Assembly: GCF_000060285.1 (NCBI RefSeq)
Contig: NC_008555.1
Span: forward strand, 2,666,001-2,730,000
Source: Listeria welshimeri serovar 6b str. SLCC5334
GTDB lineage: Bacteria; Bacillota; Bacilli; Lactobacillales; Listeriaceae
Direction of reading: 5' to 3'
DNA: 64,000 nt
Positions 16,528-46,384 of the stretch are shown in pieces (the stretch's first letter is position 1; every line of letters starts with the position of its first letter). The notes beneath the pieces are model-generated. The model saw nothing but the letters and a program-made list of their open reading frames with translations. It searched no databases and had not been told where the DNA came from. The position numbers were made by a program, and so were the translations under genes.

Positions 16528-17367
16528 ATGACAACACAAGCGATTATTTTAGATATTGATGGCACTTTATTAAATGACGACAAAAAAATCTCACCCGAAA
16601 CTAAAAAAGCACTCATCACCGCGCAACAAAATGGCGTTAAACTCATCCTCGCATCTGGCAGACCAACAACCGGAATGCACCTGTACGCCGAGCAATTAGA
16701 AATGGAAACATATCACGGCTTACTCGTTTCTTACAACGGTGCCAAAGTTGTTGATTGCCAAACAAAAGAAGAATTATTTAATCAGACGCTCACTATTGCA
16801 GAAGGAAAAGCTGTACTTGAACATATGAAGCAATTTGAAGTAAAAGTCATGATTGATAAAGACGACTATATGTATGTGAACAATGTATACGACTGTTATA
16901 TCCCTTACAAAGGCGAAGAAATTAACATCATTCAATATGAATCTCGCGGTGGCAACTTCAAGCTATGTGAAAAAGAAGATTTAGCAGCATTTTTAGATTA
17001 TCGTATCAATAAAATACTAACTGCCGGCGACCCAGACTATATGCAAAAAAATTACCAAGCCATGATGGCTCCTTTTAAAAATACTCTTAACTGCGTCTTT
17101 ACAGCAGATTTCTACTTTGAGTTTACAGCAAAAAATATCGACAAAGCCAAAGCTCTCGACACTGTTTTAACACCAATGGGCATTCACGCTGAAAACATTA
17201 TCGCTTTTGGAGATGGACATAACGATATCACTATGGTCAAATATGCTGGAACAGGTATCGCCATGGACAACGCCGTTCCTGAATTAAAAGCAGTAGCCAA
17301 CTCCATTACTTTATCCAACAATAAAGACGGAATTGCGCACGTACTAAATAATTTCATTAAGAGTTAA
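16528..17367 (+). CDS. Cof-type HAD-superfamily phosphatase
   Basis: The 279-aa HAD class IIB phosphatase has motif I DIDGTLLND at residues 9-17, motif II around LASGRPT (residue 48), a conserved Lys in the cap-to-core region and motif III/IV GDGHNDITMVKYAG. Enzymes of this group dephosphorylate sugar phosphates, FMN or PLP; the substrate cannot be assigned. AAAAGGAG precedes the ATG. A short terminator follows, shared with the convergent Nudix gene. Confidence 0.92.
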   Translation: MTTQAIILDIDGTLLNDDKKISPETKKALITAQQNGVKLILASGRPTTGMHLYAEQLEMETYHGLLVSYNGAKVVDCQTKEELFNQTLTIAEGKAVLEHMKQFEVKVMIDKDDYMYVNNVYDCYIPYKGEEINIIQYESRGGNFKLCEKEDLAAFLDYRINKILTAGDPDYMQKNYQAMMAPFKNTLNCVFTADFYFEFTAKNIDKAKALDTVLTPMGIHAENIIAFGDGHNDITMVKYAGTGIAMDNAVPELKAVANSITLSNNKDGIAHVLNNFIKS

Positions 17368-37258: not shown

Positions 37259-38836
37259 ATGAATTCAGAGAACCTAATTGCTCCAGAACTTTATAATATC
37301 ACCGACGAGATTGCTAAATTTAGTTCTGAAAAAACTGCCTTAATTTGGAAGAATGACCACGATGAAACAAAAACTTGGAGTTATCGTCACCTGCTTGAAC
37401 AAGCGAATAAATTTGCTAATGTGGTAAAAAATGCTGGTGTTAAAAAAGGAGATCACGTCATTGTTATGACACCTAGAGCACTTGAAACTTACGCCATCTA
37501 TATGGGTTTGTGGAAAGCTGGGGCTATTATCATTCCCGCATCCGAACTACTTAAAGCCCATGATTTAGAATACCGTATTCACCACGCAAACGTAAAAGCA
37601 ATCGTTTCTTACAGCGGAATGACAGCAGAATTTGATAAAATTGAAAAAATTCCTTCTGTATCGAAAAAAATTATTGTTGGTGGCAAATTATCCGGCTGGG
37701 ATCATTATGAAACATTAATGGATTCGGCTTCTACTGATTTTGAACGCGTAGAAACTTCTCGCGATGATGCTTGCCTGCTTGCTTTCACAAGTGGCACAAC
37801 TGGTAATCCTAAAGGGGTTGTACATATTCATGGTTGGGGTTATGCACATATTCGTATTGCAGCTGATCATTGGCTCGATATTCATGAAGATGATATCGTC
37901 TGGGCTACAGCAGGACCTGGTTGGCAAAAATGGGTTTGGTCTCCTTTCCTTTCTGTACTTGGAAAAGGCGCGACCGGTTTTATTTACAGCGGTCGTTTCA
38001 TTCCTGAAAAACAACTTCATTTACTAGAAGAAGAAAAAATTAACGTACTATGTTGTACGCCAACGGAATATCGCTTAATGGCAAAAGTAAATCATTTACG
38101 TGAACATGATTTAAGTTCGCTTCGTAGCGCCGTTTCAGCAGGAGAACCTTTAAACCGAGAAGTTATTCAAGTTTTCCAAGATAATTTTAACATTAAAGTC
38201 CGTGATGGCTACGGTCAGACGGAAAGTACCCTTTTGATTGGAACACTTGTTGATACACCAATTCGTCCTGGGTCAATGGGTAAACCAATTATGCCTGAAT
38301 ACATGGCGATTATTGATGCAGATGGAAATCCTGTCGGGGTTGGCGAAATTGGTGATATCGCTATGCGTAAAGACTTCCCGGCACTTTTCAAAGAGTATTA
38401 TAAGGAACCCGAACGCTTGCAAAAAGCGATTCGTGGTGATTATTTTGTTTCTGGTGACCGTGCAATCCGTGATGAAGATAATTATTACTGGTTCCAAGGC
38501 CGGAATGATGACATTATTATTAGCTCCGGATACACCATCGGACCATTTGAAGTTGAGGACGCGCTCACACATCACCCCGCTGTAAAAGAAGTCGCTGTTG
38601 TCGCAAGTCCTGACGAAATCCGTGGTACTGTTGTAAAAGCGTTCATCGTTTTAAAAGATGGATACGAGGGCACCGAGGATCTTGTTCATGAATTACAAAC
38701 ATTTACAAAAGAACAAACTGCTCCATATAAATACCCTCGCCGAATTGAATTTGTTGAGTCATTACCGAAAACTGATTCTGGTAAAATTCGCCGCGTCGAG
38801 TTGCGTGATGCGGAGTTTGCTAGTGTTAATAAATAA
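37259..38836 (+). CDS. AMP-forming acyl-CoA synthetase (acetyl/medium-chain type)
   Basis: The 525-aa adenylate-forming enzyme has motif A3 AFTSGTTGNPKGVVHIHGW, motif YGQTES, the aspartate of YFVSGDRA and the C-terminal SGYTIGPFEVEDAL and KTDSGKIRR, with the A10 lysine. It activates a carboxylic acid to acyl-CoA through an acyl-adenylate. The acid (acetate or a short/medium acyl group) is not certain; annotation as acetate-CoA ligase is common. The ATG has AAAGGAG at 7 nt. A bidirectional terminator follows. Confidence 0.9.
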   Translation: MNSENLIAPELYNITDEIAKFSSEKTALIWKNDHDETKTWSYRHLLEQANKFANVVKNAGVKKGDHVIVMTPRALETYAIYMGLWKAGAIIIPASELLKAHDLEYRIHHANVKAIVSYSGMTAEFDKIEKIPSVSKKIIVGGKLSGWDHYETLMDSASTDFERVETSRDDACLLAFTSGTTGNPKGVVHIHGWGYAHIRIAADHWLDIHEDDIVWATAGPGWQKWVWSPFLSVLGKGATGFIYSGRFIPEKQLHLLEEEKINVLCCTPTEYRLMAKVNHLREHDLSSLRSAVSAGEPLNREVIQVFQDNFNIKVRDGYGQTESTLLIGTLVDTPIRPGSMGKPIMPEYMAIIDADGNPVGVGEIGDIAMRKDFPALFKEYYKEPERLQKAIRGDYFVSGDRAIRDEDNYYWFQGRNDDIIISSGYTIGPFEVEDALTHHPAVKEVAVVASPDEIRGTVVKAFIVLKDGYEGTEDLVHELQTFTKEQTAPYKYPRRIEFVESLPKTDSGKIRRVELRDAEFASVNK

Positions 38837-38877
38837 AGAAATAGAAGTTCTCATTGGAGGACTTCTATTTCTTTATT
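38837..38877. terminator. Bidirectional terminator before the membrane-protein cluster
   Basis: AAAGAAATAGAAGT pairs with ACTTCTATTTCTTT around a 12-nt loop. It serves the acyl-CoA synthetase gene and the convergent cluster. Confidence 0.85.
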
Positions 38878-39716
38878 TATTCGCTATACCACTGTTTTTT
38901 GGTGAAGCCATGCTCTTTTCGAAACGATTCTGTATACTTTTGAAGCAAGTAACTTTTAACGAATTCAGGATAAAAATAGCGCACAGGAATGGCTACCAAT
39001 AAAAATAAAACAATAGCCACCGATAATATTTGCCCCATTGGAACTAACATTGTAGAGATCCACGAGTTGTCATTTAAAAGCCAAAATTTATTTATTCGAT
39101 AAATTTGCATACCTGCTATGACAATAACAATCCCATAAATTAAGGACTTATCAACAATTTTCCCCCATAAGGGTATTTTAATTGTTGGGTCAAAGACTGC
39201 TAACTCACTTATTTCCAGATATTGTAAATATTTGTAAATTGCAAAGCTAACTAATATAACACCACCAACCGCACAAATAGTTTGTATCATAATTTGCATC
39301 ATATATTCATCTTTTATTCCCGCCGAAAATGCCCCGAATACAAGCCATAACCCAATTGAAAAGATAACTGATACGATACTAAAAATAATAGAACAGCAAG
39401 AATAAAATCTTGATAGATAATTCTCCGAGAAACTTTTTAAATTTAGCTTAAAAAAATAAATGATTGTCCATAAAACAACTGCCCATTCGATGAGAGCAAA
39501 AACAGGACTACTAACAACCCAACCAGAGAAGGTGCTTGCTAACAGGGTTTCAACGCTAATGATAATAACAAAGAAAATGTATCTCAGAAGCATCATTTTC
39601 TGGTTCATTGATTTTTCTATTATCGTCTTATTAATTATTTGGTTAGCCTGCTCAAAGTTGATTTTTTGGACAATTTCTTGATTTTCTTTGTTGAAAAAGA
39701 TAGTTGTTAACTTCAT
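38877..39716 (-). CDS. Multi-pass membrane protein, fourth gene of a paralog cluster
   Basis: This 279-aa protein has about six or seven hydrophobic helices and no family I recognise. Features shared with its three neighbours are the motif MQIYRINKFW, a long membrane helix, and a charged C-terminal tail ending FRKEHGFTKKQWYSE. It lacks the N-terminal HxIYExLNG block of the middle two genes. I chose the ATG at 39716, giving a 4-nt ATGA overlap with the upstream gene; a GTG four codons earlier is the alternative. It ends at the shared terminator. Confidence 0.7.
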   Translation of the reverse strand: MKLTTIFFNKENQEIVQKINFEQANQIINKTIIEKSMNQKMMLLRYIFFVIIISVETLLASTFSGWVVSSPVFALIEWAVVLWTIIYFFKLNLKSFSENYLSRFYSCCSIIFSIVSVIFSIGLWLVFGAFSAGIKDEYMMQIMIQTICAVGGVILVSFAIYKYLQYLEISELAVFDPTIKIPLWGKIVDKSLIYGIVIVIAGMQIYRINKFWLLNDNSWISTMLVPMGQILSVAIVLFLLVAIPVRYFYPEFVKSYLLQKYTESFRKEHGFTKKQWYSE

Positions 39717-40546
39717 TCTCCGTACCACTCTTTTTCTGTGAACTCATACTCTTTTCTAAATTCTTCTGAGTATTTTTTGTAAATAAGACCGTCCACCAAC
39801 GCTGAAGCATTTAAAAGAAGTGTTGGGAGTAGGGTGATTATAATTAAAATCACTATGCCTATGAATATAAGAAGCACTGATAAAATCATCCCCGCCCAGG
39901 TTCCATTCAACCCAGAAAGAGCATCTGAACTAGACTCACCAATCCACCATTTATTAACTCGATAAAATTGCATACCTGCAATTATTAGTACTATAAAACC
40001 CATTAAAACCACAGATAACATTTTAACAGCCTTTATTGTCCCTTTTTTCTTACCTAACTTTTCATTATCTACCAAATACTCTGTTTGAACATTTTCAATC
40101 AGCTTTATTTTGATAATATAGAAGGATAAGCAATACCCAAATAAAATATATAGGCAAGCTGCTGTTCTATTTATAATGACGTTATCTGATATTTCGATAG
40201 AAGTGATATAAAAAATGAGCGCTGTTTGCGTAAATAAATATACAGAAAATGTGTATGCAGCATTCTTGAAATAAAGACTACTTCTAAAATATCCTATGCA
40301 AATAGCGATAATTATTACAGATGCTAGAATCGGAAATAGATACCAGTTATACGCGGAAAATAAGCATATTAACCAAGATATACTAGCGAACACGAAAATT
40401 TTTAGTGTTCGGGGAAATAGTTCTTTATTAGTTCCGTTTAGCGTTTCATATATGTGATGCAGTGAATTATTTTCTAAGGATTTTTTAAGGGAAATGGAAT
40501 CAACCAATTTAGATACTGAATTCATTTTTATATGTCTATTCACCAT
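39713..40546 (-). CDS. Multi-pass membrane protein, third gene of a paralog cluster
   Basis: The 277-aa protein has about six hydrophobic helices. It is closely related to the gene before it: HHIYETLNGTNKELFPRTLK at the N-terminus, YILFGYCLSFYIIKIKLIEN, MQFYRVNKWW, and a C-terminus ending YKKYSEEFRKEYEFTEKEWYGE. No enzyme motif is visible. ATG at 40546 has AAGGA about 6 nt upstream. A later ATG at 40525 fits the N-terminal alignment with the paralog better but has no ribosome site. Confidence 0.7.
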   Translation of the reverse strand: MVNRHIKMNSVSKLVDSISLKKSLENNSLHHIYETLNGTNKELFPRTLKIFVFASISWLICLFSAYNWYLFPILASVIIIAICIGYFRSSLYFKNAAYTFSVYLFTQTALIFYITSIEISDNVIINRTAACLYILFGYCLSFYIIKIKLIENVQTEYLVDNEKLGKKKGTIKAVKMLSVVLMGFIVLIIAGMQFYRVNKWWIGESSSDALSGLNGTWAGMILSVLLIFIGIVILIIITLLPTLLLNASALVDGLIYKKYSEEFRKEYEFTEKEWYGE

Positions 40547-41342
40547 ACCATTCCTTATCCGTGAACTCATATTCCTTTTGAAAGTCTAATGAGTATTTTT
40601 TGTAAATAAAGCCGTCCAACACAACCGATGTTTTTAAAAGAGATGTCGGGAATAACGTGAACAGCGCTAAATTTGCAAAGGCTATAAAGCTAGAAAAAAC
40701 GTATAGAACAGTTCCTACCAAAGAGTCATATGAATAATCATAATTGTTACTGCTGTTCCACCAATCACTACTTATCGTATAAAATCTCGTTACCCATATT
40801 GCAACTACTAAAGCCAAGCCTAAAATGACCGCCACTATTTTTAATATCTTTATCGTTTTTCTTTTTCGGATTAATTTCCCATCTTTTATTAAATAGTTTA
40901 TTTGGATATTTTCAATTAATCGAATTCTTATAATATAAAAAGAAAGGCCATATCCAAATAAAATATATAAAATAGCATACGTTCTAATCATATCTGGATT
41001 TTCCCAAGGCATCCAAACAGAGAAGAAAAACAGGACAGCTGTTTGAATTATTAAGTAAACAGCGATTGTGTATGCTGCGTTTTTAAAATAACGTTTACTT
41101 CTGGTAAATCCTATGAAAATACCTAAGATTATAATGGATGCGGTAATTGGAAAACCCGCCCCTTTAAGTCCAGAAATCAAACATATAGACCACGAAAAAG
41201 CAGCTAAGATGTATACTTTCAGTGACTTAGGTATTACTTCTTTTCCTGTACCATTTAAATTTTCATATATTCGATGCATTGAATTCTTCTCTAAGGCGTT
41301 CTCAAAAGAGACAGCATTTATTAATTTCGATAGTGTTTTCAT
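40536..41342 (-). CDS. Multi-pass membrane protein, second gene of a paralog cluster
   Basis: The 268-aa protein has about six hydrophobic helices and the same blocks as the third gene: HRIYENLNGTGKEVIPKSLK, YILFGYGLSFYIIRIRLIEN, and YKKYSLDFQKEYEFTDKEWYGE at the C-terminus. The RxNKWW block is degenerate here (TRFYTISSDWW). It starts with ATG behind GAGGAG and overlaps the first gene by 4 nt (ATGA). The role is unknown. Confidence 0.7.
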   Translation of the reverse strand: MKTLSKLINAVSFENALEKNSMHRIYENLNGTGKEVIPKSLKVYILAAFSWSICLISGLKGAGFPITASIIILGIFIGFTRSKRYFKNAAYTIAVYLIIQTAVLFFFSVWMPWENPDMIRTYAILYILFGYGLSFYIIRIRLIENIQINYLIKDGKLIRKRKTIKILKIVAVILGLALVVAIWVTRFYTISSDWWNSSNNYDYSYDSLVGTVLYVFSSFIAFANLALFTLFPTSLLKTSVVLDGFIYKKYSLDFQKEYEFTDKEWYGE

Positions 41343-42112
41343 TGGTTGCTCCTCGTATTTTCTTGTTGAAATTCTGTTGCATATTCTTTTAGCAAAATAC
41401 CTTCAGTAATTGTTTTAGCATTAAATAATAATGTAGGGAGTAATGAGAAAACAACAAGAAGTATTATTAATAAAATCCCGACCACTAAAACTAAAAACAT
41501 TCCTAGCCATTCATTTTGGATAGATATCCCATTAGATGAACTGTTATTTCCAATGAACCACCATTTATTTAGCCTATACAATTGGGTACCCAAGCCAATT
41601 ATCACTAATAAAATAATGGACAGTTTTAAAAAAACTTTATTCCATATTTTAGATACAGAGATTCCTTTTAAATTTATACCATTATTTTTTAAATAATTTA
41701 GAATCATTGCTCTGCATCGAAAGTAGCCAAGCACAGCAACCAAAAATAAATAACATAACGCCACTAAAACATAGTATTCTCCAAAAGGTGTCTCACCATC
41801 AACTCTTATTCCTAATAATATGCTCACTGTAGTAGTTTGAAGCATTACATATTTAGCCAATTGGTAACTAAATTCTTCCAATAATTTATTGTTAGCTTTC
41901 GAAATATAATAATACAGAAAACTTATTACTATGATTATGATTAAGATACTTGTAATAACAATGGAATTCTTCAAAGGCAAAAGTGCCATAAATCCGCAAA
42001 AAAATGCGCGAATAAACAATTTTATACTTTGCGAAGTTGTGTTTTCTTTATCTCTTATGTCTATTAGTTGTTTAGCTTCTTCAAAAGTAATTTTGCTCAT
42101 GATGAATTTCAT
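41339..42112 (-). CDS. Multi-pass membrane protein, first gene of a paralog cluster
   Basis: This 257-aa protein has about seven hydrophobic helices. It shares the block LYRLNKWWFIG, then a long helix and LLPTLLFNAKTITEGILLKE with the other three proteins, but its C-terminus is shorter and lacks the WYGE ending. The N-terminal FEEAKQLIDIR resembles FEQANQIINK of the fourth gene, suggesting that first and fourth form one subtype and second and third another. ATG at 42112 has GGAG 7 nt upstream. Confidence 0.7.
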   Translation of the reverse strand: MKFIMSKITFEEAKQLIDIRDKENTTSQSIKLFIRAFFCGFMALLPLKNSIVITSILIIIIVISFLYYYISKANNKLLEEFSYQLAKYVMLQTTTVSILLGIRVDGETPFGEYYVLVALCYLFLVAVLGYFRCRAMILNYLKNNGINLKGISVSKIWNKVFLKLSIILLVIIGLGTQLYRLNKWWFIGNNSSSNGISIQNEWLGMFLVLVVGILLIILLVVFSLLPTLLFNAKTITEGILLKEYATEFQQENTRSNQ

Positions 42113-42425
42113 TTAAAAACTCCATTTCTATTGGCAAATTTATTAAGAATCTTATTATTTAGTTGGCTTGGTTTAAAGTCACCATTCCCGCTGCGATAAT
42201 TAACTCCAACTTTACTCTCTTTATATTTAAACTATTTTAGCATAGAAGGGGCGGATTATGTACCTCCATTCACAAACACTTTCTTTGTGCTATGAATCTT
42301 TATTTTCTCAGCGATTTCTCTATCTAATCACTTGTAAATAGAACCACTCTTAACTGCCGAGCCTTTCTAATTCACAAAAATGACAATTTGAATGGCTATT
42401 TTAATGACTTTTTGGGGAGATTGGT

Positions 42426-45949: not shown

Positions 45950-46384
45950 ATGTCAAAAAATGAAACAGTTCTTTTTGCAGTAGATGCCTCTGAGGAATTA
46001 ACGATGAATATAAAAGAAGCTAGTGAAAAAAGTGGCGTTTCTGCTGATACAATTCGTTACTATGAACGAATTGGTTTAATTCCTCCTGTACATCGCAATG
46101 AAAATGGCGTGCGCAAATTTGGTGCTGAAGATTTACGTTGGATTCAATTTAGCCGTCAAATGCGTCGTGCTGGTTTATCTATTGAAGCTCTGATTGATTA
46201 TTTAGCGCTTTTCCGAGAAGGCGAACATACGCTAGAAGCTCGCGTTGAACTTCTGAAAGAACAGCGCGTCGACTTAAAAAATCGTATTAATATCATGCAA
46301 GAAGCACTCGACCGCCTTGATTTCAAAATTAACAATTATGATACCCATCTCATTCCCGCACAACAAAAACTAAAAGATTTTTAA
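45950..46384 (+). CDS. MerR family transcriptional regulator (NmlR/AdhR-like)
   Basis: The 144-aa protein has an N-terminal MerR helix-turn-helix (NIKEASEKSGVSADTIRYYE, then IGLIPPVHRNENGVRKF) after an unusual roughly 20-residue extension, and a C-terminal coiled-coil dimerisation helix. I see no metal-binding cysteines, consistent with the NmlR/AdhR/thiol- or aldehyde-responsive group. It starts at ATG 45950 behind AAAGGAG. It is followed after 21 nt by a cupin gene, which shares its MerR-type promoter and is likely its target. Confidence 0.9.
   Translation: MSKNETVLFAVDASEELTMNIKEASEKSGVSADTIRYYERIGLIPPVHRNENGVRKFGAEDLRWIQFSRQMRRAGLSIEALIDYLALFREGEHTLEARVELLKEQRVDLKNRINIMQEALDRLDFKINNYDTHLIPAQQKLKDF

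Follow-up and report, generated by a model that had tools for sequence, protein, structure and literature searches.

The 64,000-nucleotide stretch analyzed here, positions 2,666,001 to 2,730,000 of the Listeria welshimeri serovar 6b str. SLCC5334 chromosome (NC_008555.1; hereafter the window), carries four tandem genes for multi-pass membrane proteins that, with a probability which we put at roughly 85%, form an orphan immunity array against type VIIb LXG toxins, in which each protein of five to six predicted transmembrane segments (TM) would guard against one toxin class. This interpretation, which comes from sequence comparison, is strongly supported because relatives of the four genes stand directly behind LXG toxin genes, co-vary with the tips of these toxins and differ in copy number from genome to genome. 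An immunity array had been one of the options named in the original prediction for this DNA; nothing was found in support of the other two, a membrane complex with unequal subunits and bacteriocin self-protection. The four genes, with the classes (A to E, after the tips of the toxins) proposed for them, are the following.

41339 to 42112, minus strand: gene 1, 257 residues, proposed class A immunity protein, at the toxin-proximal end of the array
40536 to 41342, minus strand: gene 2, 268 residues, diverged class E member without the YRxNKWW block
39713 to 40546, minus strand: gene 3, 277 residues, proposed class E immunity protein, with its start at 40546 or about 40525
38877 to 39716, minus strand: gene 4, 279 residues, proposed class C immunity protein

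The relatives were placed in their genomic context by comparing 21 loci around matches in the genus and the family and 19 loci around outgroup and toxin-like matches. In other Listeria species and in two other genera, relatives of the array genes immediately follow genes for LXG toxins of the type VII secretion system (T7SS). The 25 genus genomes contain 11 near-full-length toxins of this type; each scores above the PF04740 cut-off and has a family member directly behind it (gap of -16 to 51 nucleotides), and six further toxin/member pairs were found outside the genus, in genera g17 and g21; three additional partial toxin matches in the genus had no member adjoining. At the chromosomal place of the window's array, L040, L045, L048 and L052 have an LXG toxin gene preceded by one or two small genes and followed by at least one member. 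At the same place in L038, L051 and L053 there are arrays without a toxin, colinear with that of the window throughout (L038) or with gaps (L051 and L053). A four-row profile recovered, besides the four genes, a fifth copy at 357278-358102 of the 2,814,130-bp chromosome; at its place, a toxin and a member are present in L039, L041 and L046, and the member alone in the L. welshimeri genome.

Conservation among the 11 genus toxins extends to about residue 430, after which come a glycine-rich stretch (GPLEGAQYGGPFGAVAG in the L052 toxin) and a variable tip of about 100 residues. The strict zipper pattern GxxxGxxxGxxxGxxxG was checked in four toxins and is present in those of L052, L040 and L041. 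Tip classes A to E were first set by eye from the tip alignment and later repeated by clustering. The comparison of toxins with their first neighbours used 17 pairs, i.e., the 11 of the genus and the six from g17 and g21, and included the L098 toxin unchanged, although its open reading frame (ORF) is without the usual N-terminus. Left out were L099 (toxin in two ORFs), L088 (toxin in pieces), L096 (a remnant), L103 (truncated toxin, no member), L090, L104 and L105 (other C-termini, the last two also without a member) and L094 (divergent toxin and divergent member).

Across the 17 pairs, the distance between neighbours correlated with the distance between tips (r 0.79, p 1e-4), and the partial correlation given the toxin N-terminus was 0.77. 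The 11 genus pairs alone gave r 0.90 for the tip and 0.15 for the N-terminus (p 0.16), and the six pairs outside the genus gave 0.50 (p 0.049) and 0.00, respectively. Five tip clusters coincided with five immunity clusters at an adjusted Rand index (ARI) of 1.0 over the first 70 columns after the zipper, a stretch chosen after the alignment was seen; the ARI against the immunity clusters was 0.64 for the whole tip and 0.01 for the N-terminus. Additionally, all 17 toxin-adjacent members fell into tip-pure clades of a 53-member tree, in which clades A, B, C, D and E each have a support of 100 and one member (L047, 8932) is unclassified. In the broken cases L099 and L088, tip and member are likewise both of class D. 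These results bear on the proposal that the proteins are not immunity proteins but membrane partners, adaptors or chaperones, that help to export or target LXG toxins. The location of members directly behind the toxin gene, often overlapping it, agrees with such a role; export partners should, however, track the conserved LXG N-terminus, whereas the members track the tip (partial r 0.77 vs 0.13), and multi-copy arrays persist without this toxin type in the window, L038, L051 and L053. A role in export is therefore very unlikely.

Exchanges between natural loci also link the tip to its neighbour. Between L040 and L049, the toxin genes share 93-100% identity per 100-nucleotide block over their first 1200 nucleotides, and over the first 1100 nucleotides those of L039 and L041 are 97-100% and those of L045 and L048 98-100% identical. 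In the tip region of these three pairs the identity falls to a lowest value of 40-49% (8% in the last block of L040/L049, which is short), and the class of the first neighbour differs together with the tip. By comparison, the toxin genes of L048 and L052, a pair of the same class, are 86-100% identical to the end. The toxin genes of L091 and L097 show 88-97% and then fall to 62%, and here too tip and neighbour differ.

With regard to the window, assignment of the genes to classes followed from their relationships in the tree. The original prediction of four paralogous genes was correct, with similarity beyond chance: a search with gene 3 found gene 2 (49% identity) at E 5.2e-75, and genes 1 and 4 at 1.0e-17 and 2.6e-7, respectively. 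Gene 1 is the sister of the class A member behind the L049 toxin (support 100), inside a class A clade (support 100) with five toxin-adjacent members. Genes 2 and 3 belong to the class E clade together with the toxin-adjacent L092 member (support 100), to which they are 43% and 54% identical in amino acid sequence, and gene 4 groups with the toxin-adjacent L040 member (support 98; 83% amino acid identity) within a class C clade with a support of 100. The fifth copy belongs to class D; none of the five copies found in the genome is of class B. We thus propose that the array covers classes A, C and, twice, E, that the fifth copy covers D and that cover against B is missing.

Some of the details expected of the four proteins held and others did not. 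The YRxNKWW block thought to be common to all is exact in genes 1 and 3, but reads YRINKFW in gene 4 and YTISSDWW in gene 2; charged tails ending in WYGE or WYSE do occur in three proteins (genes 2, 3 and 4) and not in gene 1. Genes 2 and 3 form one subtype, as had been suggested, at a tree distance of 1.07 substitutions per site. The pairing of genes 1 and 4 as another subtype is not supported, as theirs is the largest of the four measured distances (3.88, compared with 3.57 for genes 3 and 4 and 2.77 for genes 1 and 3) and they lie in separate clades, each with a support of 100. The tree likewise does not favor the duplication of a pair, and classes A, C and E are each found without the other two, behind toxins or alone, in other genomes: L040 has C alone, L052 A alone, L053 A and E, and L051 A and two E. 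Since these classes occur separately, the array looks like an assembly of already diverged genes, together with one duplication that gave genes 2 and 3.

The array's own genome has no toxin of this type at E<=1e-10. Its EssC scored 1895 bits, and it has nine LXG matches, none of the eight listed positions being inside the window. A tblastn search of the window with the proteins of the toxin module found no remnant of it, the sole match at E<1e-3 being a MerR-type gene (46004-46255), and the best toxin match was at E 0.019 (17116-17304). The ratio of nonsynonymous to synonymous substitution rates (dN/dS) for orthologues of the five genes, in a comparison that takes in the toxin-adjacent orthologues in L040 and L039, was 0.12-0.32, against 0.01-0.03 for four neighboring core genes; the five genes are thus constrained yet fast-changing. 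These observations can be read as the sign of a decaying remnant, i.e., immunity genes left over after the loss of a toxin and no longer useful, and the lack of this toxin type in the genome, the broken members in other genomes (e.g., L045 and L047) and a dN/dS about ten times that of the neighboring core genes all fit such an account. Against it, the four window genes all have open reading frames and are tightly coupled, their dN/dS is well below 1 at a dS of 0.4-1.0 between the window and its relatives, and L038 has a colinear array, as do L051 and L053, there with gaps. We consider decay very improbable.

Copy number across Listeria was found to be variable, with no uniform presence: 14 of the 25 genus genomes matched the four-row profile at E<=1e-3, with 0 to 7 matches per genome, pieces counted. 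In a sample of the family, 16 of 36 genomes matched at E<=0.01, and both additional ones were weak. A 36-row profile matched 28 of 395 genomes of the order (E<=1e-4), half of them in the genus; of the 14 outside it, ten were strong (genera g17, g21 and g27) and four weak. The own genome was the only match at E<=1e-5 in a class-wide sample of 398, and gene 3 had no match among plasmid and phage records at E<=1e-3. Distant members of 261-265 residues were seen with a widened profile (E 6e-10 to 2e-12) in genus g6, at L101:7821-8618, L102:7368-8153 and L106:7369-8154, and are not directly behind a toxin of the glycine-zipper LXG type. Members split into two ORFs (L045:9074-9886 and L047:8071-8834) are a sign of decay in some arrays.

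Hydropathy predicted five membrane segments in genes 1, 2 and 3 and in the fifth copy, and six in gene 4; an AlphaFold2 model of gene 3 has six long helices (predicted local distance difference test, pLDDT, 71; predicted template modeling score, pTM, 0.68). The original prediction knew no described family for these proteins, and this holds in Pfam, NCBIfam and the literature searched. At E<=10, profile searches of the four proteins against Pfam and NCBIfam turned up scattered matches below threshold and no fitting model, with no clear match to a transporter or sensor family; among the 34 Pfam families matched at E<=0.5 by the 36 members of alignment A2, none was reached by more than three members, and comparison of folds with the PDB gave nothing convincing. 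That the genes encode a transporter, a sensor or a multi-subunit membrane complex with no link to toxins is suggested by their multi-pass proteins in a single overlapping operon and by the best of these Pfam matches, a weak one to ThrE in 3 of the 36 members (best E 3e-5). The ThrE score of gene 1, however, was 14 bits with a cut-off of 26.3, members occur singly or in other sets (L040, L052, L053 and L051), and such a function leaves the co-variation with toxin tips unexplained, so that we regard it as extremely unlikely.

Several observations weigh against an immunity function. Gene 2 has diverged strongly and no longer has the conserved block, class D members in L042 and L090 are near LXG genes of other kinds, and class E rests on a single toxin (L092). 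The perfect agreement of clusters is limited to the 70-column stretch, and neighbor distance also correlated weakly with that of the toxin N-terminus (r 0.26, p 0.012; partial r 0.13). As for the toxins, the L039 toxin does not have the strict five-glycine pattern, and a structure model was too poor to be used (pLDDT 58.5, with the C-terminus mostly below 50). Gene neighborhood can itself mislead, because a six-pass protein encoded directly behind telE is reported to have given Escherichia coli no protection from TelE, which a soluble protein did provide (PMC10434224).

If the four genes are an immunity array, it may act in a manner that parallels TsaI and ExiCD of Staphylococcus aureus. A related bacterium would secrete an LXG toxin with a C-terminal glycine zipper and a variable tip, the zipper region would enter the target membrane from outside and depolarize it, and the matching membrane protein would meet the toxin in the membrane, recognize its tip and block insertion or pore assembly. 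The toxin module, present at this chromosomal place in relatives, would have been lost or never present here, and the immunity genes would have been retained under purifying selection.

Toxin shields as such are already known, and it is the membrane protein family that seems undescribed: no description of it was found in the portions available of the literature on Listeria LXG, T7SS and orphan immunity, and an earlier mention is possible. TsaI (DUF443, PF04276) is described as the immunity protein to the S. aureus T7SS toxin TspA, for which homologues are also mentioned (PMC7456083). As in the array, polytopic membrane proteins occur there as tandem non-identical copies, beside a polymorphic membrane-depolarizing LXG toxin (PMC7456083, PMC9484751). 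DUF443 proteins have about 210-240 residues, and TsaI has five TM; the TsaI array keeps its toxin, whereas that of the window is without one. No sequence relation was found between the families: hhalign gave a probability of 5.7% over 42 columns, and PF04276 was absent both from the Pfam matches that the four proteins gave at E<=10 and from the 25 of 34 families listed for the 36 members. DUF443 genes are also separate in the same genome, beside other LXG genes. Two of them, with equal scores (G000:C1:1967099-1967659 and 2101490-2102050), each lie about 0.9 kb from an LXG match (1968541 and 2102932) and represent a second, separate membrane immunity family.

ExiC and ExiD (DUF5079/DUF5080) are reported to confer immunity to extracellular EsxX, a glycine-zipper membrane-depolarizing LXG toxin; they are six-TM proteins that also occur as orphans in antitoxin islands, but both are required together, and they are reported only in Staphylococcaceae (PMC12744356). 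In the array family there is one gene per toxin, and four related copies are together in the window. Searched by Pfam models only, DUF5079 and DUF5080 had no match to the four proteins at E<=10 and were not among the 25 of 34 families listed for the 36 members. TelE of Streptococcus gallolyticus is a further LXG toxin with variants, and its toxicity requires the C-terminal glycine zipper; its immunity protein TipE (DUF5085) differs from the array proteins in being soluble, with 151 residues (PMC10434224). A candidate relation to the DUF5085/TipE or ExiAB type was rejected, as the array proteins are multi-pass and not soluble, and the four proteins had no DUF5085 match in Pfam. LXG hotspots outside the ess locus of Listeria monocytogenes are described with an LXG gene, small helical partners and an adjacent immunity gene, as well as with orphan immunity genes, and the portions available of that source make no mention of the array family, the locus or a multi-class membrane array (PMC10327511). 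In S. aureus, immunity genes are known both in tandem and as orphans (PMC9484751), and a review states the two arrangements in general (PMC10765036). The window's array differs from the known systems in its protein family and in combining several classes in one array without any toxin.

The order of genes within arrays invites a further, more doubtful idea. Loci with a toxin and at least two tree members in a row are L039, L044, L045, L047, L048, L091 and L098, with L049 excluded from the count as its other members are behind unrelated genes. The first member matches the class of the tip in 7/7 of these loci, and none of the nine further members, one of them unclassified, has the tip's class. 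Moreover, the outer class B gene of L039 shares 96.7% DNA identity with the B gene next to the L041 toxin, that of L048 shares 98.4% with its toxin-adjacent counterpart in L045, and L091 retains a class D gene with 92.0% DNA identity to that of L097. Because tip and neighbor are exchanged jointly, outer genes are of classes other than the tip's and the first member matches the tip, arrays might be ordered records of toxin exchanges, in which a new tip and its immunity gene enter beside the toxin and the older immunity gene is displaced outward; we hold this only tentatively, as a possibility on the unlikely side. Read in this way, and speculatively, class C would be the oldest in the window, followed by class E with its diverged copy and then by class A, with loss of the toxin module as the last event; equally speculatively, the target of gene 2 would be a tip class not yet seen. 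At L039:8537-10160, the last 78 nucleotides of the adjoining class D and B genes are 96% identical and the remainder 44%, which hints at recombination via the conserved WYGE tail. This is not general, because only one of six other tail comparisons reached 96% (L041 B and L039 D) and five gave 27-78%.

Other features of these loci were also recorded. In L094 (7354-9512), a divergent member (E 3.7e-14) follows a different LXG protein, which has 442 residues and a glycine-rich stretch of the GPLEG type; the pairing may therefore reach beyond this toxin type. L088 (7392-10064) has isolated fragments of toxin C-termini, with tips of class D, next to class D and B members; they resemble orphan tip cassettes. 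In the window itself, the four ORFs lie in one tight overlapping run on the minus strand, as had been read from the letters, with overlaps of 4 nucleotides at two junctions (41339-41342 and 39713-39716) and, if gene 3 starts at the ATG at 40546, of 11 nucleotides at the third (40536-40546). This start codon is uncertain, because the relative in L051 has no ATG at the matching position, despite an AAGGA just 5' of 40546; the next ATG of the window, near 40525, would leave a short gap. A promoter scan found 17 where 20 were expected. The stretch 42113-42387 lacks two genes (242 and 247 residues, the latter MerR-like) that in L038, L040, L051, L052 and L053 separate the array or toxin module from an acetyltransferase gene. 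At the other end of the array there is a possible terminator, which does not appear in the terminator-scan list because the loop limit of the scan was 8:

38829 to 38880, no strand: 20-bp perfect inverted repeat with a 12-nucleotide loop, 3' of gene 4 and overlapping the end of the convergent ligase gene

The array would represent an unnamed membrane immunity family in which each subtype is assigned to a toxin tip, and its five natural classes open specificity to direct tests. Toxin pairs that differ in little besides the tip offer natural swaps for studying how a membrane protein recognizes a membrane-inserting toxin. If arrays are indeed records of exchanges, they could predict extinct or unsampled toxins. 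The class content of arrays could, in any case, help explain which Listeria coexist.

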